Assembly (NCBI RefSeq): GCF_014644295.1
Contig: NZ_BMKK01000001.1
Coordinates: 558,001 to 622,000, forward strand
DNA: 64,000 nucleotides
Reading direction: 5' to 3'
Source of the DNA: Emticicia aquatilis
GTDB taxonomy: Bacteria > Bacteroidota > Bacteroidia > Cytophagales > Spirosomataceae
Position 1 is the first letter of the stretch. Each line of letters starts with the position of its first letter. The notes beneath the pieces were generated by a model. The model ran no database searches. It had not been told where the DNA came from and saw nothing but the letters and a program-made list of their open reading frames with translations. The translations under genes and the position numbers were made by a program. This document shows positions 22,746 to 43,591 of the stretch, in pieces.

Positions 22746-23888
22746 ATGAAATATCTTTTTATTATTCAAGGAGAAGGGCGTGGGCACCTAACACAGGCCA
22801 TTGCTCTGAGTGAAATATTGAGCAAAAACAATCATCAAGTGGTTGGGGCATTGGTTGGTTCGGCCGACGGGAAGAATGTTCCTTCTTTTTTTACCGAGAA
22901 ATTTCAGTTTCCAAGTTTCTCATTTGCGAGTCCATGCTTGGTTTATTGCAAGAAAACCAAAAGCCTTGATGTTCGTAAAACCCTTACCAGCAGTATTCTA
23001 AAACTAAAAACATATATTTCGAGCCTCCGAAAAATTAACACCACTATCAATCAACTGAACCCTGATGTTATCATAAATTTTTATGACGTTTTGGGCGGAA
23101 TCCATCAATTTTTATTTCGTCCACAAGCACCTATGGTTTGCATAGCTCACCAATATTTACTACTCAACCCTGACTTTCAACACCCTAAAAAACATTGGCT
23201 TGATAAATTTTTGGTCAACACCAATACACACATTACAGCTTTGGGAGCAGCAAAGAAGTTGGCTCTTTCATTCACACCTTTCAACAATTACGAACAGCAA
23301 GCTATTTACACTATTCCACCACTTTTACGCACCGAAATCACCCAGATTTCACCCACAACCGAAAACTATATTTTGGTGTACATGACCCAACATACTTTGG
23401 CAGATGAACTCATCAAGTGGCACGCAAAAAATCCGAAAGTGATGGTGCATTGCTTTTGGGATAAACCACAAAATACAGAAGTGTTTAAATATTCAAGAAA
23501 CTTGCATTTTCATCGAATAAATGGGCCAAAATTCTTAGAAATGATGCAAAACTGCAAAGGTTTGGTCACTACGGCAGGCTTCGAGTCGGTCTGTGAAGCA
23601 ATGTATTTAGGGAAACCAACGATGATGATTCCAGTACCGAAACACTACGAACAAGCCTGCAACGCCCTCGATGCCAAACGTGCAGGTGCAGGAATTACAG
23701 GCAATAGATTTGACTTGGCTGCTTTCCTAAACTATATTCCGCAACATCAAGATATTAGCTCTGATTTTCAGGCATGGCATAGCCGTAGTTCTTTTTTATT
23801 TCTGCGAGAAATTGAGAGTATTTTTGAAAATAACAATCAAATTTCGGTCGATATTTTGGGGGCATCAATGGCTGGTATTAATTCGTGA
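22746..23888 (+). CDS. glycosyltransferase (GT28/MurG-like fold)
   Basis: 380 residues. The N-terminus MKYLFIIQGEGRGHLTQAIA carries the GxGRGH donor-site loop of GT-B enzymes such as MurG and MGDG synthases. The C-terminal domain has TTAGFESVCEAMYLGKPTMM followed by PVPKHYEQACNALDAKRAG, the nucleotide-sugar binding E-x7-P-x4-Q pattern. The acceptor is unknown. It follows the LpxH-like gene on the same strand, so a glycolipid or lipopolysaccharide step is plausible. Its 3' end overlaps the convergent amylase gene by 11 bp. Confidence 0.83.
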   Translation: MKYLFIIQGEGRGHLTQAIALSEILSKNNHQVVGALVGSADGKNVPSFFTEKFQFPSFSFASPCLVYCKKTKSLDVRKTLTSSILKLKTYISSLRKINTTINQLNPDVIINFYDVLGGIHQFLFRPQAPMVCIAHQYLLLNPDFQHPKKHWLDKFLVNTNTHITALGAAKKLALSFTPFNNYEQQAIYTIPPLLRTEITQISPTTENYILVYMTQHTLADELIKWHAKNPKVMVHCFWDKPQNTEVFKYSRNLHFHRINGPKFLEMMQNCKGLVTTAGFESVCEAMYLGKPTMMIPVPKHYEQACNALDAKRAGAGITGNRFDLAAFLNYIPQHQDISSDFQAWHSRSSFLFLREIESIFENNNQISVDILGASMAGINS

Positions 23889-25230
23889 AAATAGACGCAC
23901 CAAATGCGGGAATTTCAATGTTTATCGAACGCTGATTTACTGTAATAGCCTTTGATGAATCTAATCCATCTTTCAGTATCATACCATCGGGTAAATCAAG
24001 CGATATTTTTAGTGCAACACTAGTTTCAGCGGCATTTACGGCCACTACCGCAAAGGACGAATCTGTAAATCTCAAAAATACAAACTGTTGATGCGAAAGG
24101 TGCAATTCTTTGTATTTGCCCACTTGAAGTGCCAAACTCGTTTGACGAATAGCAGCAAGTTTTTGAATATAATGATAAATCGGAGGATGCAGATGGCTTA
24201 ACAAAACCTCAAGCGATGGACGAAGCACAGCATCATCTTTACCCTTCTTTCCACGCACTGCTCTTTCGCTTCCGTAATAAACAGATGGAATGCCTGGCAT
24301 ACCATACAAAAGAGCATGAAGCGGAAAAAGATGAGCCTCATTTCGTAATACACTGGCTACTCGGCTCACGTCATGGTTATCGGCAAAATTATAAAGTTGT
24401 AAGTGTTTATAAACGCCATGTTCACCAAATTGTCGGTTGAAAGTGTAGGCAATCTCGTAATAATTAGCATCATTATGACTTGAATATAAACCCTTATAGG
24501 CTTCATAATTAGTGGTCGAATCAAGCATTTGGTCATTAGCTAATTGGTTATAATCACCGTGAATCATCTCTCCCATTAACCAAAAATCGGGTTTCTTTTT
24601 TCGGCAAAAATCGGCCAATTCGGCCAAAAAATTTTTATCCATTACCTCGGCTACATCAAGGCGAAGTCCATCAATACCAAAATCATTTATCCACATTTCT
24701 ACCGCTCCGAAAATATGGTTTTTAACTTCCTCATTTCGCAGATTTAGCTTTACCAAACTATAATAACCACTCCAGCAATCATAGCTAAAATTATCGCCAA
24801 AAGGACTATGTTTATTAAAATCAACTCCCGAAAACCAATCTTTAAAACGAGATGATTCACCATTAGCCAATAAATCTCTAAATGCCCAAAAATCTCGCCC
24901 AACATGGTTAAAAACTCCATCAAGCACCAGTTTCATACCATTTTGGTGCAATTCTTGACTCAAAACTTTCAAGGTTTGATTAGTTCCCAATCGCTTATCA
25001 ACATGATAATAATCAGCCGTGTCATATCCATGCGTACTTGATTCAAACAGTGGGCCTAAATACAAGGCATTACATCCCAAATCTTTAATGGTCGGAATCC
25101 AACCGTGGATTTTATTGAGCCGTTCTACTGGCTGCCCCCACCCCTCTCCACAAGTTGGTGCCTCACATAGCCCCAATGGATAAATATGATAAAAAATAGC
25201 TTTTGAAATCCAAGAATTCTGTTGATTCAT
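23878..25230 (-). CDS. GH13 alpha-amylase family protein
   Basis: 450 residues, no signal peptide, so it is cytoplasmic. All four GH13 regions are visible: DGVFNH (104-109), GLRLDVAE (188-195, nucleophile Asp192), GEMIHG (220-225, acid/base Glu221) and FADNHD (282-287, Asp287). The N-terminal FYHIYPLGL is typical of a clade of short GH13 enzymes in Bacteroidetes and Firmicutes. A likely substrate is a small alpha-glucan or maltodextrin. A TetR regulator gene lies 136 bp upstream, and a TetR-like operator sits in front of the gene at 25246-25263. The exact specificity is unknown. Confidence 0.9.
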   Translation of the reverse strand: MNQQNSWISKAIFYHIYPLGLCEAPTCGEGWGQPVERLNKIHGWIPTIKDLGCNALYLGPLFESSTHGYDTADYYHVDKRLGTNQTLKVLSQELHQNGMKLVLDGVFNHVGRDFWAFRDLLANGESSRFKDWFSGVDFNKHSPFGDNFSYDCWSGYYSLVKLNLRNEEVKNHIFGAVEMWINDFGIDGLRLDVAEVMDKNFLAELADFCRKKKPDFWLMGEMIHGDYNQLANDQMLDSTTNYEAYKGLYSSHNDANYYEIAYTFNRQFGEHGVYKHLQLYNFADNHDVSRVASVLRNEAHLFPLHALLYGMPGIPSVYYGSERAVRGKKGKDDAVLRPSLEVLLSHLHPPIYHYIQKLAAIRQTSLALQVGKYKELHLSHQQFVFLRFTDSSFAVVAVNAAETSVALKISLDLPDGMILKDGLDSSKAITVNQRSINIEIPAFGASIFTN

Positions 25231-25366: not shown

Positions 25367-25954
25367 TTACGAATAAATTCCGTAAGAAAATTGGCGGATA
25401 ATTTCGTATTTGAGCTGGGGTGTAAGTTGGCCCGTTTTATTTTGTAAAAAACGAGCAATTACCGAATGAATAAGGCTCAGAAAGCCCATTGCATAAAGTT
25501 GTTTTCGGCCTGCCATGTTTCCGTGATTTTCTACGGCACACTCAAATAAGGTCTCGAATAACTGATATTGTTGATTCAGAAATGGTAATGCAACCTCATA
25601 GGCATCGCTTTCAATGGGCAGATTTTCTAAAGTGAGCAGAAGTCGGTAGCAAATGGGCTTTTGCTCTGCAAAATTGAAATAAACATCAACTACTTTTTCT
25701 AAAGAAAGTGGCAAATCGCCAATGTAGTCGGTAGCAGTGCTGAGTTGAGAAAGAAATGGGGTGAAGTTTTCGGAAATAATAGCCGTAAGTAAACCTTCTT
25801 TACTACCAAAATAGTGGTAGAGTGTTGGCTTAGAAATTTTAGCCATTTCGGTGATTTCACGAACAGAAACAGCATCATAACCACGCTGTGCAAATAATTC
25901 TAATGCACACGAAATAATAAATGTTCGGTTATTTATAGGGCTGTTTGGCTGCAA
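25367..25954 (-). CDS. TetR/AcrR family transcriptional regulator
   Basis: 195 residues. The N-terminal TetR helix-turn-helix (about residues 8-55) reads FAQRGYDAVSVREITEMAKI followed by SKPTLYHYFGSKEGLL, a near-canonical pattern. The C-terminal ligand domain (about 75-195) is helical and not specific. It lies upstream of, and codirectional with, the amylase gene, whose promoter carries a TetR-like palindrome, so autoregulation or local repression is likely. The ligand is unknown. Confidence 0.9.
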   Translation of the reverse strand: MQPNSPINNRTFIISCALELFAQRGYDAVSVREITEMAKISKPTLYHYFGSKEGLLTAIISENFTPFLSQLSTATDYIGDLPLSLEKVVDVYFNFAEQKPICYRLLLTLENLPIESDAYEVALPFLNQQYQLFETLFECAVENHGNMAGRKQLYAMGFLSLIHSVIARFLQNKTGQLTPQLKYEIIRQFSYGIYS

Positions 25955-26070: not shown

Positions 26071-27153
26071 TTATTTAAAAATACTTGAAATAAATTTCCC
26101 TGTTGGCTTATTTTCAGTTGTTGAAGCATTCGAGAACTCATACCCCAGCAGCTTCGCTGCCGTCTTAGCAATCTGATTTTGAAATAATTGCCCTTCCGTT
26201 TTTACTTCGCCCAAAGCAGGTGTATCTGGTCCAATGGCGGCCATCCAAATTTGGTAACAATCGGCTACTTTTTGCCCGTGGCTTGTCCATTGTGATTTGT
26301 TTTTATCGCCTCGTCCGTGGTCGGTTAAAATCAAAAATGTGGTTTTCCCTTTATATTCAGGGGTTGACTGGCAATAACTCCACAAATCTCCGATAAATCT
26401 ATCAGCAGTATTAGCAGCAAAAAGGTATTCATCGTATTTTCCTTCGTGGGCAAATTCATCTGTTTCGTCAAATGATAAAAAGAACACTTTTGGTTTATTT
26501 TTCTGGATGTATTCTTTGGCTAAATAGTAGGTAATGAAATCATGACGGTCGCTGGCGAGACTTGGATAATTTTTCAAAATCTCATTCAATAACTCTTCTT
26601 TTTGGGTCAAATTTCCTTTTACTAAATCTTTGGCTGAATTTACAGGAATACCACTACGCCTATCATTAATAATATACGGAAAAGCGTCCCATGTGGTATA
26701 AGCTGCCACCTTATTTTTTAATTTTGGTTGGTTATTCAGGAACTCCAAAACGGTCATATTTTTATTATACTTTTTATCATTTGAATTAATGCTGTCATCG
26801 GCATAACCGCTCAAAATTTCGTTATAACCAGGATACGAAAACCAATAAGGGTTCATGACATTTACTTTATTTCCTGCCCAACGATTGCCATAAAGTTGGC
26901 CTTCTTTGACTACTGTATTCCACATAAATGGCATCAGTTTCTGACGGCTTTCTTCCGCAGTTTTTCCAACAAAATTATTTTTGATTCTATCACGATTTCT
27001 CACGAATTTATCATCTTTCAAAATCGTGGTATCGACTCCACCAAAAACTTCTTGCCAACGAAAACCATCGGTTGTGATGATGAAAATATTCTCGGTTTTG
27101 TTTTGGGCAAATACCGAAAAACTAAGTAGTATGAGTAGGAATGTTTTTTTCAT
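26071..27153 (-). CDS. periplasmic alkaline phosphatase superfamily protein (phosphodiesterase/phosphatase-like)
   Basis: 360 residues with signal peptide TFLLILLSFSVFAQ. Metal-site motifs of the alkaline phosphatase/NPP superfamily are TTDGFRWQEVF (Asp29), the nucleophile region WFSYPGYNE (Ser106 in the position of the NPP threonine), FDETDEFAHEG (Asp and His ligands), TDHGRG (Asp, His) and TSHGQK (His). This fits type I phosphodiesterase, phosphatase or phosphonate-hydrolase relatives. The substrate cannot be told apart from sequence. It overlaps the PhnZ-like gene by 4 bp (ATGA type), implying translational coupling and a role in organophosphorus scavenging. Confidence 0.83.
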   Translation of the reverse strand: MKKTFLLILLSFSVFAQNKTENIFIITTDGFRWQEVFGGVDTTILKDDKFVRNRDRIKNNFVGKTAEESRQKLMPFMWNTVVKEGQLYGNRWAGNKVNVMNPYWFSYPGYNEILSGYADDSINSNDKKYNKNMTVLEFLNNQPKLKNKVAAYTTWDAFPYIINDRRSGIPVNSAKDLVKGNLTQKEELLNEILKNYPSLASDRHDFITYYLAKEYIQKNKPKVFFLSFDETDEFAHEGKYDEYLFAANTADRFIGDLWSYCQSTPEYKGKTTFLILTDHGRGDKNKSQWTSHGQKVADCYQIWMAAIGPDTPALGEVKTEGQLFQNQIAKTAAKLLGYEFSNASTTENKPTGKFISSIFK

Positions 27154-27710
27154 TTGTTTGATAAATAGATGTTTATAAGATTCATGAAGTGGTCTAAGGT
27201 TGGCAACTGCATGGCTTCAACTTTGGCAGCTTCGTCCCAGCGTCGCATTTTTATAATAAGTTCAAAATAAGGATTTTGTTCAAAATTTTCTGCTTCATTT
27301 TTGGTCATTCTTCCACCTTGAAACATCAACGTTTGCTTACTCGCCTCCGAAAGAGCCTCGTAATAATCTTCATCAATATATGTCAGATACCGCTTTGCAT
27401 TTACATGGTTTTCAACCAAAACAGCTATTTTCTCACCAAAACCTCGTTCACGAAGCCAATCAGCCGCTACTGATTCATGGTCTTTTCGGCCGTAAACTTC
27501 CATTAATTCCTCTTCGGTTTCGGCAGGGAATAAATGTCCTATATCATGCAAAAAGGCAGCAATTTGTACTTCTTCATCGTAGCCTTGTCGTTCGGCCAGA
27601 ATGGCAGCTTGGGCGGCGTGTTCGTACTGACTGACGTTTTCGCCGTAATACTCGCCATCTCCTTGACCTTCAAAGAGTTGACGGATTTCTGAAATTGTTT
27701 TTTGATTCAT
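27150..27710 (-). CDS. phnZ: PhnZ-like HD-domain phosphonate oxygenase
   Basis: 186 residues. The HD-domain ligands are His31, His55, Asp56, His78, His102 and Asp159, whose spacing closely follows that of PhnZ (His34, His58, Asp59, His80, His104, Asp161, from memory). The YYGEN motif supplies a Tyr21/Glu24 pair like PhnZ Tyr24/Glu27. PhnZ is a mixed-valent di-iron oxygenase that splits 2-amino-1-hydroxyethylphosphonate into glycine and phosphate. The basic residues after NHVNAKR may bind the phosphonate. No partner phnY gene is seen in the window, so the substrate could be taken up preformed. It is translationally coupled to the phosphatase-family gene. The exact substrate is inferred. Confidence 0.8.
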   Translation of the reverse strand: MNQKTISEIRQLFEGQGDGEYYGENVSQYEHAAQAAILAERQGYDEEVQIAAFLHDIGHLFPAETEEELMEVYGRKDHESVAADWLRERGFGEKIAVLVENHVNAKRYLTYIDEDYYEALSEASKQTLMFQGGRMTKNEAENFEQNPYFELIIKMRRWDEAAKVEAMQLPTLDHFMNLINIYLSNK

Positions 27711-27731
27711 ATATCTTAAATTAAACCAAAG

Positions 27732-27761
27732 AAAAGCGGAGCTAAAACTAACCCCGCTTTT
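27732..27761 (-). terminator. likely terminator after susD
   Basis: AAAAGCGG (27732-27739) pairs with CCGCTTTT (27754-27761). On the minus strand the 3' side is followed by a short T-rich stretch. It separates the SusC/D transcript from phnZ, although readthrough is possible. Confidence 0.55.
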
Positions 27762-27789
27762 GAAAAACTAAACCTATGATGCTAAATTT

Positions 27790-29385
27790 TTATTTTAATA
27801 ACCAAAGCATATCATTGATGTCGTCTTTTCCAGCGAACTGGCTATCAATGGCTGCTTTATAGTTATTTGCGTTGGTCGTACGCTCCGATAATGGGTATTG
27901 CCAACGAATAGCGATACGGTTCGAGTTTCCGTTTCCTACACCTGCATAGAATTTAGGGAAACCCGTACGACGCCAGTTGAAATATGCTTCCATACCAGAG
28001 TTCATAAAGAACGCTAAGTATTTTTGGGTAAGAATCTGCTCTTGACCTTTGGTTGTTTTTCCTGCGTATTTTACGGATGTTTGAGCATAGTATTTCTCAA
28101 AATCAAAATCAATGGTGAAAGTGGCTAAATCGGCTGCTTCACGGCCACCCGTTCTTGAATAAGTCATGGTATTTGAGCCATTTTTCACGCCATAGAAATC
28201 CATTGATGCTTGAATACCTTTTTTGTACCATGCTTCTGTATCGCCCGTAGCCCAACCTAAATGATAGGCTTCTGCAATATTGAAACACATTTCAGGATAC
28301 CCAACAATGAATGTAGTTTCGGCCACGTAATTACGATAATAACGATAACGATTTTGGAATGAATAAACACCCGGAGCAAAACCAGCACCATTATTGCGAC
28401 CTGCTTTTTCGCTCATATCGGTCAAATCTTCTGCCGAAGACGCACCCACATACGCACTATAATCTGATGGTTTCTTACCAGCTTTTAGTTCTGCACCTGC
28501 TGGTTCACAAGTAATCATCACACGTGGGTCGTTCATCAACGACAATGGCTCTACATAAGCCTTTGCCATATTCTGACGAGTGGCATCAAAACCAAAATTA
28601 TCAGGGTTTGATGGGTATTTATTGAAGTTATTATACGTGTATTGTAAGCTTTCCGAAACACTACTCAACAACGGAAACTTGGTAGGATTTCCCATCATTT
28701 CTGCAAAACGTGCCTTCACATTCAAATCTGCGTCAGCTTCTTTTTTGCTCAATGCCACCAAAACTCTCAATTTGTAGGCGTTAACAGCTTTTTGCCATTT
28801 ACGCACATCGCCACCGAAATAAAAATCGCCATTTACTGAATTTTCTCCTTTTGTAATCAATGCGGCCATATCGGTATTGGCATCGTCGAGCCACTTTAAA
28901 ACTTGTACGAAAATTGCTTTTTGTGTATCGTACTTAGGAGAAATATTTTCGATACCTTTCAAGGCTTCGGTCATTGGCAAATCGCCCATACGGATTGTCA
29001 TTTCGTAGAAGAAAAACGCACGGAAAAATTTACCCAAAGCACTGTATCCGTTCACATCTGCCAAACCTGCACGCTTGGCTTCTTCTTCCATTTTAATTAC
29101 ATTTTTGAGCGTATTGTAATGATTTGAGCCTGATGTCCAAGTATATTCGTTGGTTGCGTAGTAGTTGTAGTTTGAACAATAAAACTGATTCCAACGCATT
29201 TCGGCACTAAACGGGCGACCGATGTTATTGAACATATCAGATTCTACACCTTGAAGTACCAACGATGCTGGCACATTTACTGGGCGGTTCGGGTCTTTTT
29301 CGAGTTCCTCGAAAGATTTTTCGCAACTGCCCAAAGTAAGAGCTGCTACTGCGAAAATTGATGTAAATATTTTATTTATTTTCAT
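27790..29385 (-). CDS. SusD/RagB family outer-membrane lipoprotein
   Basis: 531 residues from the ATG complementary to 29383-29385 (MKINKIFTSIFAVAALTLGSC). An earlier ATG at 29412 lies in the repeat region and is not used here. The lipobox LGSC places the acylated Cys at residue 20, followed by EKSFEELEKDPNRPVNVP, characteristic of SusD-like proteins of the SusD_2 (PF12771) type. It probably caps the SusC channel and captures ligand at the cell surface. It sits between phnZ and SusC, so phosphonate-containing ligands are an attractive but unproven cargo. A structured repeat separates it from SusC. Confidence 0.92.
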   Translation of the reverse strand: MKINKIFTSIFAVAALTLGSCEKSFEELEKDPNRPVNVPASLVLQGVESDMFNNIGRPFSAEMRWNQFYCSNYNYYATNEYTWTSGSNHYNTLKNVIKMEEEAKRAGLADVNGYSALGKFFRAFFFYEMTIRMGDLPMTEALKGIENISPKYDTQKAIFVQVLKWLDDANTDMAALITKGENSVNGDFYFGGDVRKWQKAVNAYKLRVLVALSKKEADADLNVKARFAEMMGNPTKFPLLSSVSESLQYTYNNFNKYPSNPDNFGFDATRQNMAKAYVEPLSLMNDPRVMITCEPAGAELKAGKKPSDYSAYVGASSAEDLTDMSEKAGRNNGAGFAPGVYSFQNRYRYYRNYVAETTFIVGYPEMCFNIAEAYHLGWATGDTEAWYKKGIQASMDFYGVKNGSNTMTYSRTGGREAADLATFTIDFDFEKYYAQTSVKYAGKTTKGQEQILTQKYLAFFMNSGMEAYFNWRRTGFPKFYAGVGNGNSNRIAIRWQYPLSERTTNANNYKAAIDSQFAGKDDINDMLWLLK

Positions 29386-29406
29386 TTTTTGTAGCTGTTT
29401 AATATA

Positions 29407-29490
29407 CCTCACCCCCTCGCTTCGCTCGACCCCTCTCCTCGAAGGAGAGGGGTGGCATTTCTGACCTTAGGAAGAAATGACGGGGTGAGG
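29407..29490. repeat. multi-hairpin palindromic element between susC and susD
   Basis: Outer arms CCTCACCCC (29407-29415) and GGGGTGAGG (29482-29490) enclose a perfect 10-bp hairpin CCCCTCTCCT / AGGAGAGGGG (29430-29439, 29443-29452) and a second stem CATTTC / GAAATG (29456-29461, 29474-29479), drawing a three-way junction. It is GC-rich against an AT-rich background. It lies in the mRNA between susC and susD. Confidence 0.8.
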
Positions 29491-29505
29491 TGTAACGTAA
29501 TTATC

Positions 29506-32500
29506 TTAAAAAGTAAAGTTCAAATTAATACCGTATCTGCGAGTTGAAGGTGTTTGCAAACCAGAGCCACCGTCGCCAATATATTGGTTTAAGTCGATGT
29601 CTTTTTTCTCAGCGAAGTATAATAAGTTTCTACCCACAACCGAGATTGAAGCATTTCTGATTTTATTACCAAACCACTTTTCTGGTAAAGTATAACCCAA
29701 TACAACTTCACGTAACATTCCGAACGAACGGCTCATCAAGTTGCCTTCGTCTGAGTTATAATAACGACTTACGTAATCTTGTACAAATTGCTTCGTTGTA
29801 TTCGGAGTATATTGTAGCTCAGCATAGTTTGTGATTTTGCCATCTGCATCGTATTTGATAGCTACGCCATTTGATACAACAACACCTTCTCCAACGTAGG
29901 CTTTTACACCCAAATAATCTTGATAACGTGCTTCAGCAAATTTGCCAGTTGTGGTTTCGATATGGCGGCCACCACGGAATGTTTGACGTTGGATATAATT
30001 TGAAATAACTCCACCGATACGACCATCAAACTGGAAACTCATATTGATGTTTTTATAGTTAAATCGGTTATTGATACCGAATACAAATTTAGGATTGATA
30101 TAGCCCAAAAACTGACTTGTTGGATTATAAATTGGGCGTCCAGAAGCATCATTAATAATCTGTCCATCAGGAGTTTTGGCAAATGCACGACCATAGAATT
30201 TATCCATTCTATCACCTACTTTCAAGAATGTATTCAAACTATTTACTCCTGGGTAAATTTCGGTCAAAACTTCTTTGAAAGTAGAGTAGTTGGCTACTAC
30301 ATCCCAGCTAAAATTAGTGGTTTTGATTGGCGAACCTGTAATGGCTAATTCCCAGCCAGTTTTTTGAGTTTTGATACCATTCACCAAAGCCGAAGTATAA
30401 CCTGTTGCTGATGAAATTGGTAAAGAGAAGATTTTCGGACCTTCATCAGAAATGAAATACGTCAAGTCAAATCCAAGACGGTTTTTTAATACTTTAAAAT
30501 CAAGACCAATTTCAGTTTGTGAAGTAGAACTTGGCTGTAAATTCGGGTTATTTAAAGCACTCGTAAAATATCCAGCAGGTTGGTTATTATAAGCAAATGG
30601 CGTAGAATAAACCGCTGAGTTTGAGTACGCTGGGCCATCATAAGGCGAATAATATTGGTCGCCATAGCCAATCGGATTGCCGTCACCCGTTAAGGCTGGT
30701 GTTGTACCGATTGTCGAGCGAGTCAAGCCATCTTTTACGTTGGCATACGACGCACGAACTTTTAGATAAGAAATAAGCTCAGGTACTTTTACATAATCAG
30801 AAATAACTGTTGAAAGTGAAACCGATGGGTAAAAGAAGGTATTATTTCCTGAAGGTAATGTTGAAAGTTTATCTACACGACCAGTTGTAGCAAGCGTCAA
30901 GAAATTTTTATATGAAAAGTCAGCTGAATAATATGCCGAGTTTACACGCATTGCCGAAGCAAAATTGGCCGTACGAACAGGATTCGATGAGTTATTGAAG
31001 TTGTATAAACCCGGAACATTCAAATAATCAGTCGAGCCGTATTGTGAGTTATACTCGAAAGTACGAATGTTTCCACCAGCCCAAACTTTAGCATTAAAGC
31101 CTGAGAATAAGTCTTTATCGAATTTAATCAAGACATCGGTATTGTTCTCGAATAAATTACGACGGTCTTCACGGTAATCACCACGACGCTCATCACGACC
31201 GTAAGCACCCGCCGAATAAGGCATTTTTTCGCTACGGAATAAGTTCCAAGTAGTGATTTGCGAACGAACAGAGGCTTCTAAATAATCTGTTAATTTATAA
31301 GTTAAAGCAGCTTGACCAATGATGTCTGACTTTTGGTGTCCACGCAACCACTCATAACTCATAAAATATGGGTTATTGTAGCGTTGGTATTCGGCATAGA
31401 TTTGTTGGATACCTTCTTTACCTGGCTGCCAATAATTACGCATATCGTCCACATTCCAGTCGGCACCAGCCCAAAGGGTCATGTTGTAGATAATTGAGTT
31501 AGGGCCATAGTTTACGTCAGGAATGTTTGGCGTATATTGACGATTATACTGTAAGTTTGAAGTAAACGAAAGTTTTTTCGAGAATTTATAATCGGCTGCT
31601 ACATTGAAGTTAGTGATATTCAATTTAGTATTCGGAACAATACCACGCTGCGAAATCTGAGAAGTAGAAAAACGCAAATTATACTTATCACCCGTTGAAG
31701 CTACCGAGATATTATTTGTCGCAAGAATACCCGTTTGTAAAAAACGCTCTAAGTTGTCTTTTCCACGAGCTACCCACGGAGTACCATTTCTTTTTCCAGT
31801 AACTGGGTCAATTGGGCTATCGTACTGAGGAATTAGCTGCCCTTCAAATTTTGGACCCCAACCACCATCATAATCACCATCATTCAAACCACCACCTTTA
31901 CCATCTACAAAAGCATAGCGACCGTGGTCACCTGGGCCATATTCATCTTGTACTTTCGGAATTGCGTAAAAACCTCTATCAAACATTGTCGAAGAGTTTA
32001 CATCCACCGAAAAGCCACGTTTATCTTTCGTTCCACGTTTGGTTGTAATCAAAATCGCACCATTTTTTCCACGGAAACCATACAAAGCCGATGCCGAAGC
32101 ACCTTTCAAAACTGAGTATGTGTCAATGTCATCGGGGCTAATATTCCAAGTATCTGAGTTAATAGGCACACCATCTACTACATATAAAATCTCGCTATTA
32201 CCACGCAATGAAATATTTGGCTTACGAAGCATTTCTTGTTGAATACCAACCGTCAAACCAGCCACTTTACCAGCAAGAGCATTAATGGCGTTTGGCTCAC
32301 GTGCTTTAATGGTAGAAGCACCATCAACCGACTGAATAGCATAACCAATGCGACGAGCATCTTTTTTGATACCCAAAGCCGTTACTACCACCTCATTCAA
32401 CGTTTTAGTATCTTCTTGCAAAGTAAGGTCAATAACCGTCTGATTACCAACGGTTTGCTCTTGAGTTACGAATCCAATTGCAGAAACTACCAAGACCGAA

Positions 32501-32727
32501 CGAGCAGAAACATTACTCAATTTGTAGCTTCCGTTAGCATCCGAATTAGTTCCTTGATTAGAGCCTTTCACGAGTACACTCACCCCAGGAATTGGGTCTC
32601 CGTTTGGAGCAGAAATTTTACCACTTACACTTTGGTTCTGAGCATTGGCATACATTACAGCCAACAACAAACAAAACACAATTCTGATGAAACCAGTGAA
32701 TCTGGTTTTGAGTAGAGATTTGTTCAT
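29506..32727 (-). CDS. SusC/RagA family TonB-linked outer membrane protein
   Basis: 1073 residues. A signal peptide (IVFCLLLAVMYANAQ) precedes a carboxypeptidase-like regulatory domain (VSGKISAPNGDPIPGVSVLV), the TonB box-containing NEVVVTALGIKKDARRIGYA segment, a plug domain (about 120-230) with PNISLRGNSEILYVVDGVPI and ASALYGFRGKNGAILITTK, and a long beta-barrel ending NLNFTF. All are hallmarks of SusC/RagA proteins. It imports oligomers or large ligands together with SusD. Its start is preceded at 32806-32815 by a minus-strand GACCTTTGCA box. Substrate specificity is unknown; neighbours suggest phosphonates. Confidence 0.95.
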   Translation of the reverse strand: MNKSLLKTRFTGFIRIVFCLLLAVMYANAQNQSVSGKISAPNGDPIPGVSVLVKGSNQGTNSDANGSYKLSNVSARSVLVVSAIGFVTQEQTVGNQTVIDLTLQEDTKTLNEVVVTALGIKKDARRIGYAIQSVDGASTIKAREPNAINALAGKVAGLTVGIQQEMLRKPNISLRGNSEILYVVDGVPINSDTWNISPDDIDTYSVLKGASASALYGFRGKNGAILITTKRGTKDKRGFSVDVNSSTMFDRGFYAIPKVQDEYGPGDHGRYAFVDGKGGGLNDGDYDGGWGPKFEGQLIPQYDSPIDPVTGKRNGTPWVARGKDNLERFLQTGILATNNISVASTGDKYNLRFSTSQISQRGIVPNTKLNITNFNVAADYKFSKKLSFTSNLQYNRQYTPNIPDVNYGPNSIIYNMTLWAGADWNVDDMRNYWQPGKEGIQQIYAEYQRYNNPYFMSYEWLRGHQKSDIIGQAALTYKLTDYLEASVRSQITTWNLFRSEKMPYSAGAYGRDERRGDYREDRRNLFENNTDVLIKFDKDLFSGFNAKVWAGGNIRTFEYNSQYGSTDYLNVPGLYNFNNSSNPVRTANFASAMRVNSAYYSADFSYKNFLTLATTGRVDKLSTLPSGNNTFFYPSVSLSTVISDYVKVPELISYLKVRASYANVKDGLTRSTIGTTPALTGDGNPIGYGDQYYSPYDGPAYSNSAVYSTPFAYNNQPAGYFTSALNNPNLQPSSTSQTEIGLDFKVLKNRLGFDLTYFISDEGPKIFSLPISSATGYTSALVNGIKTQKTGWELAITGSPIKTTNFSWDVVANYSTFKEVLTEIYPGVNSLNTFLKVGDRMDKFYGRAFAKTPDGQIINDASGRPIYNPTSQFLGYINPKFVFGINNRFNYKNINMSFQFDGRIGGVISNYIQRQTFRGGRHIETTTGKFAEARYQDYLGVKAYVGEGVVVSNGVAIKYDADGKITNYAELQYTPNTTKQFVQDYVSRYYNSDEGNLMSRSFGMLREVVLGYTLPEKWFGNKIRNASISVVGRNLLYFAEKKDIDLNQYIGDGGSGLQTPSTRRYGINLNFTF

Positions 32728-32805
32728 AAAAGATGATTAGAATTATTTGGGTTTATCGTGTTGTTTCCAGCAAAAAGTAGGTGTTGAATGCTGAAAATTT
32801 GATGG

Positions 32806-32815
32806 TGCAAAGGTC
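32806..32815 (-). promoter_or_regulatory. putative -7 region of susC
   Basis: On the minus strand this reads GACCTTTGCA, one mismatch from TAnnTTTG at its 5' end. The same 10-mer occurs 55 bp upstream of the second TonB receptor gene (43514-43523). Confidence 0.35.
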
Positions 32816-32890
32816 AGTATGTCTTATGACTTGAATATGAAGTCTATTTTAAGCTATTGTGAAGTAATTGGGCGATTTGTTAGGTTTTTG

Positions 32891-33691
32891 TTAAATTGAT
32901 AAAAAAGAAGAGACCTTCTCTATCCATTTTTCAAGATTTCTTGTATATATGAGCCGATACTCAGCTATTAAACTGGCGTATTTTTTCTGAAAAGCTTCGG
33001 TCATTTTTTTGTTCACAGCAGCATCTCTTAGCACACATTCAAAATTATTCACTCTGCCTACAAATAGGCGATAGTCGTTACTGAGTGGCGTGTTATACTT
33101 CAAATGAAACTTTTCATTCGTATAGAACTCTACGGCAGTTTCATTAATTGCCAAGCCCTTCGCTAACCAATTTTGCTCACGACAAAGCCCTTCGTACTTA
33201 AAATATCGACCCGAAAACAGGCCATTCTTTTTATTAGCAGATGCTTCAGTATAAAACAAATAGTGGTCAGGTTGCTCAATATCAACGTAGAATTGTCGGG
33301 CATTCATGGTTTCGAGCCATTGACCGACGCTTAAAGGTTGATTTGAGTTGAGAAATAAATCGAAAACTACTTCTGTCCCTTGGTGTTCGAGCAATAGTGC
33401 AACGTGAAACCCCCAAGTAAGCAAACCATTTGGCGAAATACCATTGGGGTCAGGTAGCAGAATCGTTTGTTTAGAATCTTCTCGGTAGCGTGTGGGTGCA
33501 TAAATCCAAATCTTTTTATGTTGCACGCCATAGCTACGTAAAATCAAAGAGGCTATATGATTAACATTGTGGCAATTGCCCTGCTTGTAATCAAATAGAG
33601 GCGAAAGATAATATTTGAGTTCTTCTAAATAATATTCAAAATAACTATCGGTAATTCGAGAAAGTCGGCTATCGGTATTGGGTAAAACCAT
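32891..33691 (-). CDS. protein-glutaminase (glutamine deamidase) family protein
   Basis: 266 residues. It resembles the Gln_deamidase_2 (PF18626) group related to Chryseobacterium protein-glutaminase. The putative catalytic triad is Cys40 in QGNCHNVNH, His96 in TWGFHVALLLE and Asp111 in VVFDLFLN. Such enzymes deamidate glutamine side chains of proteins. Unlike the secreted Chryseobacterium enzyme, no signal peptide or propeptide is visible, so a cytoplasmic target or a small-molecule amidase role is more likely. It is divergent from the PhnX-like gene. Its function in the phosphonate locus is unknown. Confidence 0.65.
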   Translation of the reverse strand: MVLPNTDSRLSRITDSYFEYYLEELKYYLSPLFDYKQGNCHNVNHIASLILRSYGVQHKKIWIYAPTRYREDSKQTILLPDPNGISPNGLLTWGFHVALLLEHQGTEVVFDLFLNSNQPLSVGQWLETMNARQFYVDIEQPDHYLFYTEASANKKNGLFSGRYFKYEGLCREQNWLAKGLAINETAVEFYTNEKFHLKYNTPLSNDYRLFVGRVNNFECVLRDAAVNKKMTEAFQKKYASLIAEYRLIYTRNLEKWIEKVSSFLSI

Positions 33692-33771
33692 TGTAGTTTT
33701 TTCGGCAAAAATATGCCACTAAAAATACATCGTTTCTACCTTCACTATTAAGTATTTGTTAATTATATCGG

Positions 33772-33783
33772 GCTAATATTAGC
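33772..33783. promoter_or_regulatory. perfect 12-bp palindrome upstream of the PhnX-like gene
   Basis: GCTAATATTAGC is self-complementary, and a related half-site GCTAAT recurs about 40 bp downstream (near 33814). It lies in the divergent promoter region between the glutaminase-like and PhnX-like genes. This is a possible operator, but it could also be chance in AT-rich DNA. Confidence 0.35.
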
Positions 33784-33864
33784 TTAACAATTTGTTTATA
33801 TTTCGATAAAATCAAGCTAATTTTAAACGTTTTACTTTGTCGTGCAAAAAAACAAAAATCAAAA

Positions 33865-34605
33865 ATGCTACCGATAAAATTAGTTGTCTTTGATATGGCT
33901 GGCACAACCGTGCAAGACAAAAAGGAAGTCGAAACCTGCTTTGCTCGTGCTTGTGCCGAAACTGGCCTACAAGTGTCAGAAGAGCGAATTTTAGCCCTAC
34001 AAGGTTATTCAAAAATCGAAGTTTTCAAGCTCCTCTGGGATGAGCGAATCGGGCAAAATCACCCCGAATACGACGAAAACGTGGTGTATTCGTACGATTA
34101 TTTCCGGCTGATTCTCGAAGACCACTATAAATTTAATGATGTTTTACCAACTGATGGTTGCTTAGAAATATTCGATTTTTTACGCAAAAACGATGTAAAA
34201 ATCGCCTTAACGACTGGTTTTTACAGAAAAGTAACCAACATCATTCTCGAAAAACTCGGCTGGCTCGATGGTTTAGAATTTAACTACGTAAATACTACGG
34301 GCAAATCTGTGATTGATGTTTCTATCGCCAGCGATGAGGTTGCCAAAGGACGCCCCGAACCCCTGATGATTCAGAAAGCCATGAAGCTCATGAGTGTGGT
34401 TGACCCATACGAGGTAATTAATATCGGCGATACTCCTTCCGACCTCAAATCTGGCTTAAAAGCAGGGTGTCGTTTATCGTTGGGAGTTACAAATGGCACG
34501 CACACCCACGAACAGCTACAATTTATTCAGAATAATGGTTTGCTTACTTCCTTGCGTGAGCTCCGCCCAATTATCGAAAATATTAGTGTTTTAAACGAAG
34601 CCTAA
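33865..34605 (+). CDS. phosphonatase-like (PhnX-type) HAD hydrolase
   Basis: 246 residues, HAD superfamily. Motif I is FDMAGTTV with nucleophile Asp10 and the Ala12 typical of phosphonatases. Lys50 in GYSKIEVF lies 40 residues after the nucleophile, matching the Schiff-base lysine spacing of phosphonoacetaldehyde hydrolase (Asp12, Lys53 in PhnX, from memory). ALTTGFYRKV (motif II), GRPEPLMI (motif III) and NIGDTPSDLKSGLKAG (motif IV) are present. It probably cleaves phosphonoacetaldehyde into acetaldehyde and phosphate. The stop is immediately followed by the ATG of the FAD oxidase. Close relatives are known as the TIGR03351 PhnX-like group. Confidence 0.85.
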   Translation: MLPIKLVVFDMAGTTVQDKKEVETCFARACAETGLQVSEERILALQGYSKIEVFKLLWDERIGQNHPEYDENVVYSYDYFRLILEDHYKFNDVLPTDGCLEIFDFLRKNDVKIALTTGFYRKVTNIILEKLGWLDGLEFNYVNTTGKSVIDVSIASDEVAKGRPEPLMIQKAMKLMSVVDPYEVINIGDTPSDLKSGLKAGCRLSLGVTNGTHTHEQLQFIQNNGLLTSLRELRPIIENISVLNEA

Positions 34606-35751
34606 ATGAAAAACTTTGATTTAATAATTGTTGGTGGAGGCATCATGGGGGCGTTTCATGCGTATCACGCAACCAAACTCGGCAAGAGTGTCCTTATCTT
34701 AGAAAAAGACAATTATCCTGTTAGCTCAACTGTTCGTAATTTTGGCCAAGCCGTACCGTCAGGGTCATCGGGCAGATGGTTCGACTACGGACGTAGAAGT
34801 CTTGAAATATACCAAGATATTCAGTCGAAATTTGATATTTCAGTTCGTAGAAATGGCACTATCTATGTCGCTTCCGACGATACCGAGTGGACGCTGGCCA
34901 ACGAATTATTCGCTATTCATCAAAGCAAAGGCTATGCTTGTAATCTACTTTCCAAAAGGCAGTGTTTAGAGCAGTATCCCGAATTAAAAAGTGAATATGT
35001 AAAAGGTGCGATTTATTATCCAAACGAAGTAAGTATCGAGCCAAACTTATTGATTTATAAAGTTTTAGATTATTTACAAGAACAACACAAAGTTGCGTAC
35101 AAACCCAACTCTACCGTGATTGACTGCCAAGAAATCAATGGAAAAGCTGAGGTACTGACAGCCACAAAAGAGAAATTTTCAGCCGAAAAAGTCATCATTT
35201 GCAGTGGATATGTTTTCAATTTACTTTTTCCAGAAACCTACGCTAAAAGCGGACTGATTGTAAGCAAACTACAAATGATGCAGACAGTTCCGATGAAAAA
35301 CGTTTCGCTGAAAGGTAATATTCTCACAGGACTTTCAATCAGACGATACGAGTCTTTTGAAGAATGTCCATCTTGTAAAAATAGTACAATACCAGACCAC
35401 TACACCGAACTCAAAAAATGGGGTATTCATATACTCTTTAAGCAAGCCATTGATGGCTCAATCATCATCGGCGATTCGCATGAATATGCACCAGTTGGCA
35501 AAACTGATGAGCTGGGTTTTGATACAAAAGACTATGTTAATAAACTGATGCTCAAAGAAGCCGAACGCATCGTCAACTTCCCTGTCAATCAGATTGCTCG
35601 CACTTGGGCGGGTTTCTATGCTCAACACCCCAACGAGATTTTTGAGCATAATATTTCGCCCAATATTCATATTTTTACGGGTATCGGTGGCAAAGGGATG
35701 ACCACCAGTGCGGGTTATGCCGAACAAAATATAAGGTGTTTATATTGTTAG
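34606..35751 (+). CDS. FAD-dependent amine oxidase/dehydrogenase of phosphonate metabolism (TIGR03364-like)
   Basis: 381 residues of the DAO/glycine oxidase family. The dinucleotide-binding GGGIMG lies at 10-15, Glu34 follows beta2, the STVRNFGQAVPSGSSGRW block follows, and the C-terminal IFTGIGGKGMTTSAGYAE signature completes the FAD site. It begins at the base after the PhnX-like stop codon. Members of TIGR03364 cluster with PhnX-like genes. Recently characterised relatives oxidise 2-aminoethylphosphonate-type amines, including N-methyl forms, to phosphonoacetaldehyde (from memory, not verified). This would feed the neighbouring hydrolase. The exact substrate is inferred from context. Confidence 0.83.
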   Translation: MKNFDLIIVGGGIMGAFHAYHATKLGKSVLILEKDNYPVSSTVRNFGQAVPSGSSGRWFDYGRRSLEIYQDIQSKFDISVRRNGTIYVASDDTEWTLANELFAIHQSKGYACNLLSKRQCLEQYPELKSEYVKGAIYYPNEVSIEPNLLIYKVLDYLQEQHKVAYKPNSTVIDCQEINGKAEVLTATKEKFSAEKVIICSGYVFNLLFPETYAKSGLIVSKLQMMQTVPMKNVSLKGNILTGLSIRRYESFEECPSCKNSTIPDHYTELKKWGIHILFKQAIDGSIIIGDSHEYAPVGKTDELGFDTKDYVNKLMLKEAERIVNFPVNQIARTWAGFYAQHPNEIFEHNISPNIHIFTGIGGKGMTTSAGYAEQNIRCLYC

Positions 35752-35782
35752 AGGGCCTTCGGCTTCGTAATCACATAACCTC

Positions 35783-35810
35783 GTAGAGACGTAATATATT
35801 ACGTCTCTAC
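35783..35810. repeat. perfect 28-bp palindrome (dispersed repeat)
   Basis: GTAGAGACGTAATA (35783-35796) followed directly by its exact reverse complement TATTACGTCTCTAC (35797-35810). This sequence type recurs in intergenic regions of many Cytophagales genomes (from memory). It lies in the gap between the convergent oxidase and DUF5690 genes. Confidence 0.8.
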
Positions 35811-35823
35811 CAAATGAAATAAC

Positions 35824-35857
35824 AAATTTGGCACACCTTGAAGGTTGTGCCAAATTT
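35824..35857. terminator. bidirectional terminator-like hairpin
   Basis: AAATTTGGCACA (35824-35835) pairs perfectly with TGTGCCAAATTT (35846-35857), with a 10-nt loop. It lies between convergent genes, with T-rich sequence on the right. It probably ends both transcripts. Confidence 0.7.
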
Positions 35858-35861
35858 ATTT

Positions 35862-37172
35862 TCACCCAATCGGATTATATTCTGATTCTTTTGAGGGCGA
35901 AACTTGCCACCATAACTTCCCTTTTAGGTATTTATTTGAGAAGTAAAAAAGCTGAATGATGAGTAGAACAAAACAAACGAATGAGATGATATAACTAAAA
36001 GTCATCAGAATATTCACGAAAGCAACTTTTTTCAAGAAAAACTCACGGTAAAGCAGCAAAACTACACTACCCAAATAGCCTACGGAATCACAGATATAAA
36101 CCAAGAAACCCACGTTTCCACGAGCTTTAAAGAGAGCAATGAGTCGCTCGAAAACAACCGTTTGAATCAATAAATAAGGTAAGAAAAGTCCAATTCCCAA
36201 ACTCAACATCCAAGTTTTAGGCGTAATTAATTGCTGCTCAAATACCCACGTAGTTCCGCCACAAAGCATTACGGCCACAAGCATCATACTCGAAAAAGTA
36301 AGATATGACCGAAAATTATTTTTGATAAAGGCATTGAGAGCAATCAAACTCACCACAACCAAACCAATGATTGTCTCGGTTGTCGAAAAAATGCGTTTAT
36401 CAAATTGTGGGTCTATTTCTCGCCAAACCTCCACCGCAAAATTATCTCGGAAATCACGCATAGTGGCCAACAACAAATAAGTACCGATGAAGCAAATAAG
36501 TCCCAATCCAAACTCTTTTATTATCAATGACTTATCGGACTGACTCATGGCAACACGCTTGTTTCTTAGCGTTAAATCTTCGGAATTAGGCGGCGGAATT
36601 TGAGCCAACATCCAAACAAAAAACAGGAAAAATGGCAAGAAGATTAGCCCAATTACAACTGGTAAATGAAACTCAGTTAAGTGAAATGTTTCTTGCAGAT
36701 AAAGGTAAATGGTTTTCAACACACCCGAAGTCATTACTAAATTGAGGCTCAGACCAAGTGCCAAAAACTCAGTCAGTTTTCGGCCTTCCAAAAAACTAAA
36801 TATTACGCCCCAAACCATTCCCAATGGCAAACCATTCAGAAACAAAAACATAAAATTATACGGAAAAGGTACCAAAGCAAAAGCCAGTAAAGCACTTTCG
36901 GCAAAAGCTATTAAGCTAATAATCAACAAGATACGTTTCTTCTCCTTTAATTCAGCAATAACTTTGATTCCTATAATTTTTGACAGCATATATCCAAAAA
37001 CCTGCGAAATTATCAAGATACTTTTATAGCCAACGCCCCAAAGTTCGTAGCTTTCATAAAGCCCCGTTGTGAATGGTTTTCGGAAGGCGTACATACAAAA
37101 ATATGTACCAAAAGCAGCAATAATGCACCAAATCACGAGTAGCACCTCTGATTTTTCGAGTAGTTTTTTCAC
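35862..37172 (-). CDS. DUF5690 family multi-pass membrane protein (MFS-like transporter)
   Basis: 436 residues with about 12 predicted hydrophobic helices. The N-terminal WCIIAAFGTYFCMYAFRKPF motif and the next GYMLSKIIGIKVIAELKEKKR (loop 2-3 basic motif) fit an MFS-like fold. DUF5690 proteins are found in Bacteroidetes beside the TIGR03364/PhnX-like pair, so an inner-membrane importer of aminophosphonates is the simplest role (inference). It is convergent with the oxidase gene. The terminal helices end FSNKYLKGKLWWQVSPS. Confidence 0.8.
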   Translation of the reverse strand: MKKLLEKSEVLLVIWCIIAAFGTYFCMYAFRKPFTTGLYESYELWGVGYKSILIISQVFGYMLSKIIGIKVIAELKEKKRILLIISLIAFAESALLAFALVPFPYNFMFLFLNGLPLGMVWGVIFSFLEGRKLTEFLALGLSLNLVMTSGVLKTIYLYLQETFHLTEFHLPVVIGLIFLPFFLFFVWMLAQIPPPNSEDLTLRNKRVAMSQSDKSLIIKEFGLGLICFIGTYLLLATMRDFRDNFAVEVWREIDPQFDKRIFSTTETIIGLVVVSLIALNAFIKNNFRSYLTFSSMMLVAVMLCGGTTWVFEQQLITPKTWMLSLGIGLFLPYLLIQTVVFERLIALFKARGNVGFLVYICDSVGYLGSVVLLLYREFFLKKVAFVNILMTFSYIISFVCFVLLIIQLFYFSNKYLKGKLWWQVSPSKESEYNPIG

Positions 37173-38140: not shown

Positions 38141-38683
38141 CTACTTCCTCCCCACCCATTCGTTTATTTTCTTATCATAAACCAGTGTTGAATCTGGCCA
38201 TTCGATGTAATGTTTCATTCCTAAATATTTGTCCAAATTGCCTGTTTTTATCAGTTCTTTGAACAAAAACGCCCCTCTTTCTTTCACCAATACTTCTTCC
38301 AAATGAGGCGTATTTACTACTTCTTCAAAATCGGTTGGCATTAATGAATGCTGCTTTAATCTAAATTTTCCTACTACTCCTCTTCGGTATTTGAGGGTAT
38401 TTCCAACTGGGCGAATCAGGAAAAAATAATGTGTACTGTCGGGAGCGATGTAGTAGTTTTCGAGCGAAAACTTGGGTAAATTCTGAACATAATATTTTCT
38501 AAATTGTGGTTCGAATCTCGTAGCGTTTGTTGCGTATGGTGGCTTTAGATATATGTATGTAATGATGTTTGTAAGTAAGGTATCTCGTTCGGTGTCGCTG
38601 TAATATTTGCTTACTTTATTGCTGTTATTTTGGCAAGCAAACATCACTACTGAAATCAGCAGAAGTAAGATTTTGGTTTTCAT
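38141..38683 (-). CDS. hypothetical lipoprotein
   Basis: 180 residues from the ATG complementary to 38681-38683 (MKTKILLLLISVVMFAC). A longer upstream frame runs through the palindromic repeat at 38712-38745 and is rejected. The lipobox MFAC places the modified Cys at residue 17. The mature part has KYYSDTERDTLLTNIITYIY, DSTHYFFLIRPVGNTLKYRRG and a C-terminal HYIEWPDSTLVYDKK. No known family was recognised. It probably faces the periplasm. It lies downstream of the beta-helix lipoprotein gene. Confidence 0.7.
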   Translation of the reverse strand: MKTKILLLLISVVMFACQNNSNKVSKYYSDTERDTLLTNIITYIYLKPPYATNATRFEPQFRKYYVQNLPKFSLENYYIAPDSTHYFFLIRPVGNTLKYRRGVVGKFRLKQHSLMPTDFEEVVNTPHLEEVLVKERGAFLFKELIKTGNLDKYLGMKHYIEWPDSTLVYDKKINEWVGRK

Positions 38684-38711
38684 ATTGGTGTAGTTTGTTG
38701 TATTTTTTAAA

Positions 38712-38745
38712 TAACCTTTCCGAAACCTAAGTTTCGGAAAGGTTA
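38712..38745. repeat. palindromic repeat between two lipoprotein genes
   Basis: TAACCTTTCCGAAAC (38712-38726) pairs with GTTTCGGAAAGGTTA (38731-38745), with a 4-nt loop (CTAA): a perfect 15-bp stem located in the leader of the 38141-38683 lipoprotein gene. Confidence 0.78.
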
Positions 38746-38810
38746 ATATTTGAGCTGAATAAGCAATTTTCATTCGCTCATTCTATAATTCGCTCATTCA
38801 CTCATTAATT

Positions 38811-40571: not shown

Positions 40572-40633
40572 TGTTTTTTTGCGATACGTCGCCACGATTT
40601 TGGTTTAAGATTCTGGAGTATTGTTTGAGTAAA

Positions 40634-43459: not shown

Positions 43460-43513
43460 AATTGATATTGGTGTAAATAACCTTTATACGATTTGGTGTA
43501 TCTTATTTTCGAC

Positions 43514-43523
43514 TGCAAAGGTC
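43514..43523 (-). promoter_or_regulatory. putative -7 region of the TonB receptor gene
   Basis: On the minus strand this is GACCTTTGCA, identical to the 10-mer upstream of susC (32806-32815) and close to the TAnnTTTG -7 consensus. Confidence 0.35.
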
Positions 43524-43591
43524 TGAATCCAATGTTAACTAATTGTTAAGTCAATGTTACGAGTTAATTATGATTATGAAAACGAGTACTT

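Follow-up and report, generated by a model that had tools for sequence, protein, structure and literature searches.

SusCD-like complexes were tied to phosphorus scavenging in Flavobacterium in 2020, and the accessible portions of that report describe their co-localization with phosphonate-degrading enzymes (PMC8115612). Both the idea of an organophosphorus SusCD system and the presence of phosphonate enzymes beside PusCD complexes are already known from that source. Here we examine a locus of eight adjacent genes in Emticicia aquatilis that is likely to be a phosphate utilization system dedicated to phosphonates and built on the plan of a polysaccharide utilization locus (PUL). It lies in a window of 64,000 nucleotides, the whole stretch of DNA that was analyzed (positions 558,001 to 622,000 of contig NZ_BMKK01000001.1, which is contig 1 of 36 in a 6.75-Mb genome; assembly GCF_014644295.1). 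Natural 2-aminoethylphosphonate (AEP) is largely esterified in lipids and glycans. How Bacteroidota reach this ester-bound AEP is the question raised by the locus, and the host assembly contains no ATP-binding cassette (ABC) phosphonate-binding protein (PF12974), no C-P lyase component PhnJ, and no PhnW over cut-off.

The closest described relatives are the PUS/PusCD systems of plant-associated Flavobacterium (Lidbury 2020), which, as far as the accessible text describes them, combine a SusCD-like pair with periplasmic phosphoesterases and lack carbohydrate-active enzymes (PMC8115612). The Emticicia locus likewise has SusC and SusD side by side, together with an esterase and three phosphonate-type enzymes, and no carbohydrate-active enzymes. 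Unlike in the Flavobacterium systems, its set of PhnZ-like, PbfD-type, PhnX-like, and DUF5690 proteins repeatedly accompanies a single SusC clade across several families of the phylum. Moreover, PUS are defined by induction under phosphate depletion (PMC8115612, same portions), whereas any control of the Emticicia locus by phosphate is something that we infer. A preliminary description of this DNA had stated that no SusCD system for phosphonates was on record. The Flavobacterium work of 2020 overtakes that statement in part, but a SusCD system defined by its phosphonate enzymes was not found in open-licence full texts, and the accessible portions of PMC11892949, PMC9426549, PMC10752948, and PMC8812569 contain nothing on one.

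Three other systems invite comparison. In phnX-pbfD clusters that lack phnW (PMC10590968, accessible portions), as here, an oxidase gene is joined to that of a PhnX-type hydrolase and no PhnW scores over cut-off; the Emticicia locus differs by the addition of SusCD, a periplasmic-type esterase, and DUF5690, and its hydrolase falls below the PhnX cut-off. The PhnY-PhnZ pathway (structures 4mlm and 4n6w) shares with it a PhnZ-type HD oxygenase with the same ligands, but no PhnY-type hydroxylase is linked in Emticicia, where import or synthesis elsewhere would have to provide the hydroxylated substrate. Starch and glycan PULs have the same locus logic, with SusC-SusD, a surface lipoprotein, a periplasmic hydrolase, and an inner-membrane carrier, whereas the present locus has C-P cleaving enzymes and no glycoside hydrolase.

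Gene families were scored against Pfam and NCBIfam cut-offs. The eight genes are open reading frames with the order, the 4-bp overlap, and the 0-bp junction that the preliminary description gave:

26071-27153, minus strand: alkaline phosphatase (AP)-superfamily phosphoesterase (Metalloenzyme PF01676, 26.6 bits; cut-off 24.3)
27150-27710, minus strand: PhnZ-like di-iron HD oxygenase (TIGR03276 Phn-HD, 219.4; cut-off 214.6)
27790-29412, minus strand: SusD-like surface lipoprotein (SusD-like_2 PF12771, 200.5 bits; cut-off 27)
29506-32727, minus strand: SusC/RagA-type TonB-dependent outer-membrane channel (TIGR04056, 487.9; cut-off 368; TIGR04057 also over cut-off)
32891-33691, minus strand: Gln_deamidase_2 domain protein (PF18626, 46.2; cut-off 25)
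33865-34605, plus strand: PhnX-like (phosphonatase-like) haloacid dehalogenase (HAD) hydrolase (Pfam HAD families passed; TIGR03351 below cut-off)
34606-35751, plus strand: TIGR03364 (PbfD-type) FAD-dependent amine oxidase (362.1 bits; cut-off 285.1)
35862-37172, minus strand: DUF5690 inner-membrane protein (PF18943, 475; cut-off 25)

The overlap joins the AP-superfamily and PhnZ-like genes, the PhnX-like and TIGR03364 genes abut, and SusC and SusD are separated by 93 bp. SusD carries a lipobox, LGSC, recognized by eye, and an alternative ATG start nine codons in would give MKINKIF... at its N terminus. None of the eight genes encodes a glycoside hydrolase by Pfam, which agrees with the earlier portrayal of a PUL-like locus free of such enzymes between its genes. 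The nearest one found is a GH13-type alpha-amylase (23878-25230), about 0.9 kb past the esterase and beyond a TetR gene (25367-25954) that follows it. Emticicia aquatica (L146 in our numbering of loci), one of the named relatives found, has the entire block in unchanged order, with genes for Gln_deamidase_2, TetR, and alpha-amylase as part of it.

The association between the SusCD pair and phosphonate genes is far above chance. TIGR03276 matches at E up to 1e-10 occurred in 32 of 194 genomes sampled from the order of the host; up to 20 kb was fetched around each match, except in the host, for which the window served, and genes were mapped with profiles derived from the proteins of the window together with their relatives. 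A SusC/SusD pair lies within 10 kb of the TIGR03276 gene in 23 of the 32 loci, representing six families (21 of 30 scored by script, plus L034 and L051, in which the pair adjoins PhnZ by coordinates). Six of the nine misses (L036, L052, L053, L057, L059, and L061) are at short contigs or contig ends. A sample of 395 genomes from the phylum gave 17 with TIGR03276 at E up to 1e-30, eight of them over the cut-off; of 11 further loci examined there, only L245 lacks the pair within 10 kb and the other 10 have it, although the start of the contig truncates SusC in L237. The host genome encodes 43 SusCs over cut-off and 12.1% of its bases fall within 10 kb of one, a rate at which 23 of 32 has a binomial probability of 7e-15; this value is indicative, as the rate comes from one genome and the sampled genomes are related.

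The same association emerges when SusC serves as the anchor. A scan of genome contigs with a SusC alignment yielded at least 80 loci, 10 at 44% identity or more and 70 at 25-31%. Among the matches listed, PhnZ-like, PhnX-like, or TIGR03364 genes occur within 10 kb at 7 of the 10 close loci versus 0 of the 70 generic ones, of which 39 are at least 22 kb long and the others have shorter flanks. The three close SusCs without such a neighbor, again among the matches listed, are from Dyadobacter (L145) and from two Chryseobacterium metagenome-assembled genomes (L152 and L153, the latter on a 5.9-kb contig). Genomes of the order in which a close SusC was identified (E up to 1e-150) carry PhnZ or TIGR03364 in 25 of 27 cases versus 19 of 167 without (Fisher 2e-17), with the reading that close-SusC presence is a lower bound, four candidates per genome having been scored, and that the test ignores kinship. 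Chance adjacency was rejected on the recurrence of the pair and on the generic SusC control. The preliminary description had grouped the pair with the phosphonate enzymes and had called for a search among relatives; the pair recurs there beside these enzymes, and the comparison supports that grouping.

A FastTree phylogeny of 183 SusCs places the window protein in a clade of 42 (support 1.0), 29 of which are linked within 10 kb to PhnZ, PhnX-like, or TIGR03364 genes; many members were sampled through PhnZ, which inflates the linked shares and makes the SusC-anchored test the fairer one. All 29 belong to a nested group of 36, the inner clade (support 0.83). The corresponding clade of an earlier tree, with 174 SusCs, had 22 of 35 members linked (support 1.0). 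A neighboring set of 12 SusCs, 10 of them linked, is joined at a weaker node (0.70), and none of the host background SusCs in the tree (30 of the 42 others) falls inside the clade of 42.

The enzymes themselves retain the residues expected of their families. The PhnZ-like protein aligns end to end with the PhnZ structure 4mlm (E 2.4e-39), scores over the TIGR03276 cut-off, and keeps the di-iron ligands. His55, Asp56, His59, His78, His102, Lys106, Arg156, and Asp159 are invariant in 44 of 44 sequences, His31 and Glu24 are present in 43, and Tyr21 in 42, such that all eleven ligand and substrate positions are kept in 42-44 of 44. Positions 22 and 157 are variable; one residue before each, the aligned Tyr21 and Arg156 are kept. 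PhnZ cleaves (R)-1-hydroxy-2-aminoethylphosphonate ((R)-HAEP), and we propose the same reaction for the PhnZ-like enzyme. The PhnX-like protein aligns with the PhnX structure 2iof (E 2.8e-10) and has Lys50, Arg163, Asp189, and Asp193 in 43 of 43 sequences and Asp10 in 42 (one gap). We take Asp10 to be the nucleophile and Lys50 to be the cap-domain Schiff-base lysine, with Arg163 in place of the usual lysine, and we propose that this protein hydrolyzes phosphonoacetaldehyde.

The oxidase is over the TIGR03364 cut-off and adjoins the PhnX-type gene in a genome with no PhnW over cut-off. According to the accessible portions of one report (PMC10590968), the TIGR03364 family includes a characterized PbfD enzyme, PbfD enzymes oxidize N-methyl-AEP and AEP to phosphonoacetaldehyde for PhnX with release of methylamine or ammonia, and phnW is missing from most clusters of the PbfD2 subgroup. 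By analogy, the Emticicia oxidase is proposed to convert N-methyl-AEP or AEP to phosphonoacetaldehyde. The preliminary description had this enzyme group as a proposed source of the aldehyde; the product is as it said, but the activity is no longer merely proposed (PMC10590968, same portions). It had also envisaged two cytoplasmic routes of C-P cleavage. Both are encoded, but the hydroxylase gene for the PhnZ route is not in the window.

The best functional evidence, at the level of sequence, is that validated AEP enzymes are swapped into the same kind of cluster. Locus L077, of genus g5, encodes a PbfA over threshold (730.6; cut-off 525), and PhnZ is missing from all five sampled g5 genomes. 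PbfA acts on (R)-HAEP (PMC12366243, accessible portions). Locus L244 encodes PhnW, phosphonoacetaldehyde dehydrogenase, and PhnA, all over threshold, beside SusCD, an AP-type esterase, PhnZ, and DUF5690; no PhnX-like gene was seen in the L244 cluster. As 8 of the 32 genomes with PhnZ have a PF12974 match, weak in four cases, the absence of ABC uptake from the host is not general.

The AP-superfamily esterase has an N-terminal signal peptide, judged by eye, and its residues Asp29, Ser106, Asp232, His236, Asp278, His279, and His292 are kept in 16 of 16 sequences. A sequence search of the PDB at E up to 0.1 gave no match to it. An AlphaFold2 model (mean pLDDT 69) matches LtaS, phosphonoacetate hydrolase, sulfatases, and ENPPs, and given this modest model confidence the matches support assignment to the superfamily only. 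We propose that the enzyme is periplasmic and frees the phosphonate head group. In the order, 17 of 30 scored loci have a phosphoesterase (profile score above 150) no more than 10 kb from PhnZ, as do 8 of 11 from the phylum, whereas, among the matches listed, 0 of 70 generic SusC loci have one, in a comparison biased toward the phosphonate loci from which the profiles were built. Six kinds occur beside PhnZ: AP-type, PF01663, PF04185 with a beta-propeller, calcineurin-like, glycerophosphodiester phosphodiesterase (GDPD)-type, and phosphocholine-specific phospholipase C, the last over cut-off in one case. Varied esterases beside recurrent C-P enzymes suggest that an esterified aminophosphonate is what the cargoes share, and as phosphoesterases recur, the cargo is probably of that kind. 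Proteins of about 820-930 amino acids that combine a beta-propeller with PF04185 are found in phosphonate loci L048 (6630-9374), L054 (6886-9690), and L236 (13369-15828).

For the inner membrane, the preliminary description named DUF5690 as the importer of the aminophosphonate. The AlphaFold2 model of this protein (pLDDT 90) has the major facilitator superfamily (MFS) fold, with SLC37A4/G6PT as the top Foldseek match (E 1.4e-7, TM 0.65/0.73) and GlpT (1pw4) at a TM of about 0.67, and Arg31 and Arg239 are present in 52 of 52 sequences. It is therefore alike in fold to the organophosphate:phosphate antiporters GlpT and SLC37A4 but unlike them in sequence; hhalign gives a probability of 0.3% for a relation to PgtP-like MFS proteins. 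Residue-level matching of DUF5690 to GlpT failed, the sequence methods seeing no relation. By eye, Arg31-Lys32 and Arg239 resemble Arg45-Lys46 and Arg269 of GlpT. DUF5690 is a proposed importer of the freed aminophosphonate on its modeled transporter fold. No paper naming the family was found in open-licence full texts.

Three genomes with a SusC of this clade (G087, G101, and G177) have no DUF5690 match anywhere and instead have an MFS gene beside the cluster. The best NCBIfam relatives of this gene, as scanned in L037, are PgtP and GlpT, below cut-off, and it has relatives in L051 and L074. A PgtP/GlpT-like MFS gene also lies beside the cluster in Hymenobacter locus L148. DUF5690 by itself was rejected as a marker: a recognized SusCD pair lies within 10 kb in 0 of 20 other DUF5690 loci, a control that is softer than it looks because the SusD profile was of one type. 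Other roles or cargos are possible for the family, which also occurs outside the clusters (L095-L114, with a second host copy at G000:C11:178268-179401, L107); L111 has a PhnX-like neighbor.

Together, these components can be arranged into a proposed pathway. SusC and SusD would carry an esterified aminophosphonate across the outer membrane, either a phosphonolipid or a glycan bearing AEP or its N-methyl or 1-hydroxy forms. The periplasmic esterase would cut the P-O ester to free a small phosphonate, which DUF5690, with its antiporter-like fold, would carry into the cytoplasm. There, the PhnZ-like enzyme would split the 1-hydroxy form to yield phosphate, while the PbfD-type oxidase would convert AEP or N-methyl-AEP to phosphonoacetaldehyde, from which the PhnX-like hydrolase would release phosphate. 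Perhaps this represents a phylum-wide, TonB-driven uptake of polymer- or lipid-bound phosphonates by Bacteroidota, with a dedicated SusC clade, a periplasmic phosphono-ester hydrolase, DUF5690 as an aminophosphonate carrier of a class hitherto unrecognized, and no need of ABC transporters; we offer this broader proposal tentatively, at a little under even chances.

A number of observations weigh against a dedicated phosphonate system. Three loci of the order with full context (L040, L054, and L056) carry another TonB receptor in place of SusCD, and only 18 of the 32 genomes with a TIGR03276 match exceed the curated cut-off. In the inner SusC clade, 7 of 36 members lack a phosphonate gene in the surrounding 10 kb, two of these being on contigs under 8 kb; the unlinked members include that of Dyadobacter (L145) and those of g5 (L062-L064), a genus in which a 75%-identical SusC and the oxidase/PhnX/DUF5690 cluster are on separate contigs. 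The PhnX-like protein is under cut-off in both relevant models (TIGR03351, 166.1 versus 218.9; PhnX TIGR01422, 93.6 versus 220), which is why we call it PhnX-like. The substrate of PhnZ has to be hydroxylated, and the window contains no gene for a PhyH-type (PhnY-like) hydroxylase (PF05721); the host genome has seven PhyH-family places, all of them elsewhere. The DUF5690 profile finds no PDB chain at E up to 10 and no significant MFS sequence similarity, and SusC alone lies within 10 kb of 3 of the 20 other DUF5690 loci (L102, L105, and L114). Lastly, a sister group of six SusCs (L065, L066, L071, L072, L152, and L153) is linked to none of the phosphonate genes. In L071, L072, and L152, the three that were scanned, SusC is followed by a gene of the PF13350 tyrosine-phosphatase family. 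Because the sister group is unlinked and PF13350 follows, the receptor family may serve organophosphates generally, and the sister group is perhaps a SusCD system for another organophosphate.

This leads to the alternative that survives best, general organophosphate uptake of the PusCD kind, in which any head group would be accepted and the phosphonate enzymes would mop up the phosphonate fraction. We regard it as a genuine possibility, if a less than even one. The sister group with its PF13350 phosphatases fits such a system, as do accessory esterases of several kinds, including relatives of phosphocholine-specific phospholipase C and GDPD, and the linkage of Flavobacterium PusCD clusters to phosphomonoesterases, phosphodiesterases, and phosphonate enzymes in the accessible portions of PMC8115612. 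However, phosphonate enzymes are commoner around the inner SusC clade, where the type of esterase varies, and 10 of the 11 PhnZ-anchored loci from outside the order include SusCD.

The locus might instead scavenge aminophosphonates for nitrogen or carbon, with ammonia or methylamine released by the oxidase and phosphate as a by-product. PbfD enzymes do release methylamine or ammonia (PMC10590968, accessible portions), and the recurrent regulator is a helix-turn-helix (HTH)-cupin protein, although no search was made for a PhoB-type regulator. Phosphorus is indicated by the recurrence of phosphoesterases and by the response of published PusCD complexes to phosphate depletion (PMC8115612, accessible portions), though neither is a direct test; we consider this explanation unlikely. 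We find it very improbable that the PhnZ-like, PhnX-like, and FAD enzymes act on non-phosphonate substrates and that the locus is not about C-P bonds. The below-cut-off score of the PhnX-like protein and the standing of TIGR03276 and TIGR03364 as 'hypothetical equivalog' models would allow it, but the catalytic residues checked are kept, and like clusters in two relatives contain over-threshold PbfA or PhnW with phosphonoacetaldehyde dehydrogenase and PhnA. Finally, that SusCD is a glycan importer neighboring phosphonate genes by chance is hardly credible: chance neighbors do occur among 43 host SusCs, and the esterase is about 0.9 kb from a GH13 gene, but the pair is repeatedly found next to TIGR03276, within the order (six families) as well as beyond it, whereas generic SusCs are linked in 0 of 70 loci among the matches listed.

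If the locus is indeed a phosphonate SusCD system, it would extend the PUL concept beyond carbon and would offer DUF5690 a testable function. A SusC clade that predicts phosphonate use would also be a marker, in metagenomes, for the consumption of high-molecular-weight phosphonates.

One candidate regulatory feature is located in the 173-bp intergenic region between the divergent PhnX-like and Gln_deamidase_2 genes:

33772-33783, no strand: candidate operator, perfect palindrome GCTAATATTAGC

In Emticicia aquatica, the equivalent intergenic region also contains this palindrome, with a single change, and the block around it looks conserved; the motif was picked after looking, and it is a weak candidate for an operator. 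Of 163 upstream regions, 17 contain its core, TAATATTA, where 20 shuffles gave a mean of 4.75 and at most 8; other AT-rich words emerged as well, for example AAAGTTTA, with 18 of 163 against a mean of 3.0. The enrichment of the core is modest, and as a possible shared operator TAATATTA, also chosen after looking, is only a lead. The Gln_deamidase_2 protein has no evident signal peptide and is encoded by the first gene after the divergent promoter, before SusC; among the mapped loci, a relative in the same place was found only in E. aquatica. Phosphonate loci in the order and the phylum repeatedly contain the HTH-cupin regulator (e.g., L038, 18620-19207), but in the window no gene for it was seen up to 10 kb from PhnZ.

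A second putative phosphorus-uptake cluster adjoins the locus at window positions 38141-44392 and also includes a small putative lipoprotein:

38811-40595: beta-helix-looking lipoprotein (by eye)
40634-43459: TonB receptor
43592-44392: GDPD gene

This cluster resembles the Flavobacterium PUSIII, which the accessible portions of PMC8115612 describe as a TonB-dependent transporter with a polygalacturonase-like lipoprotein, induced at low phosphate. TonB receptors related by profile adjoin phosphonate genes in L040, L056, L078, and L080.

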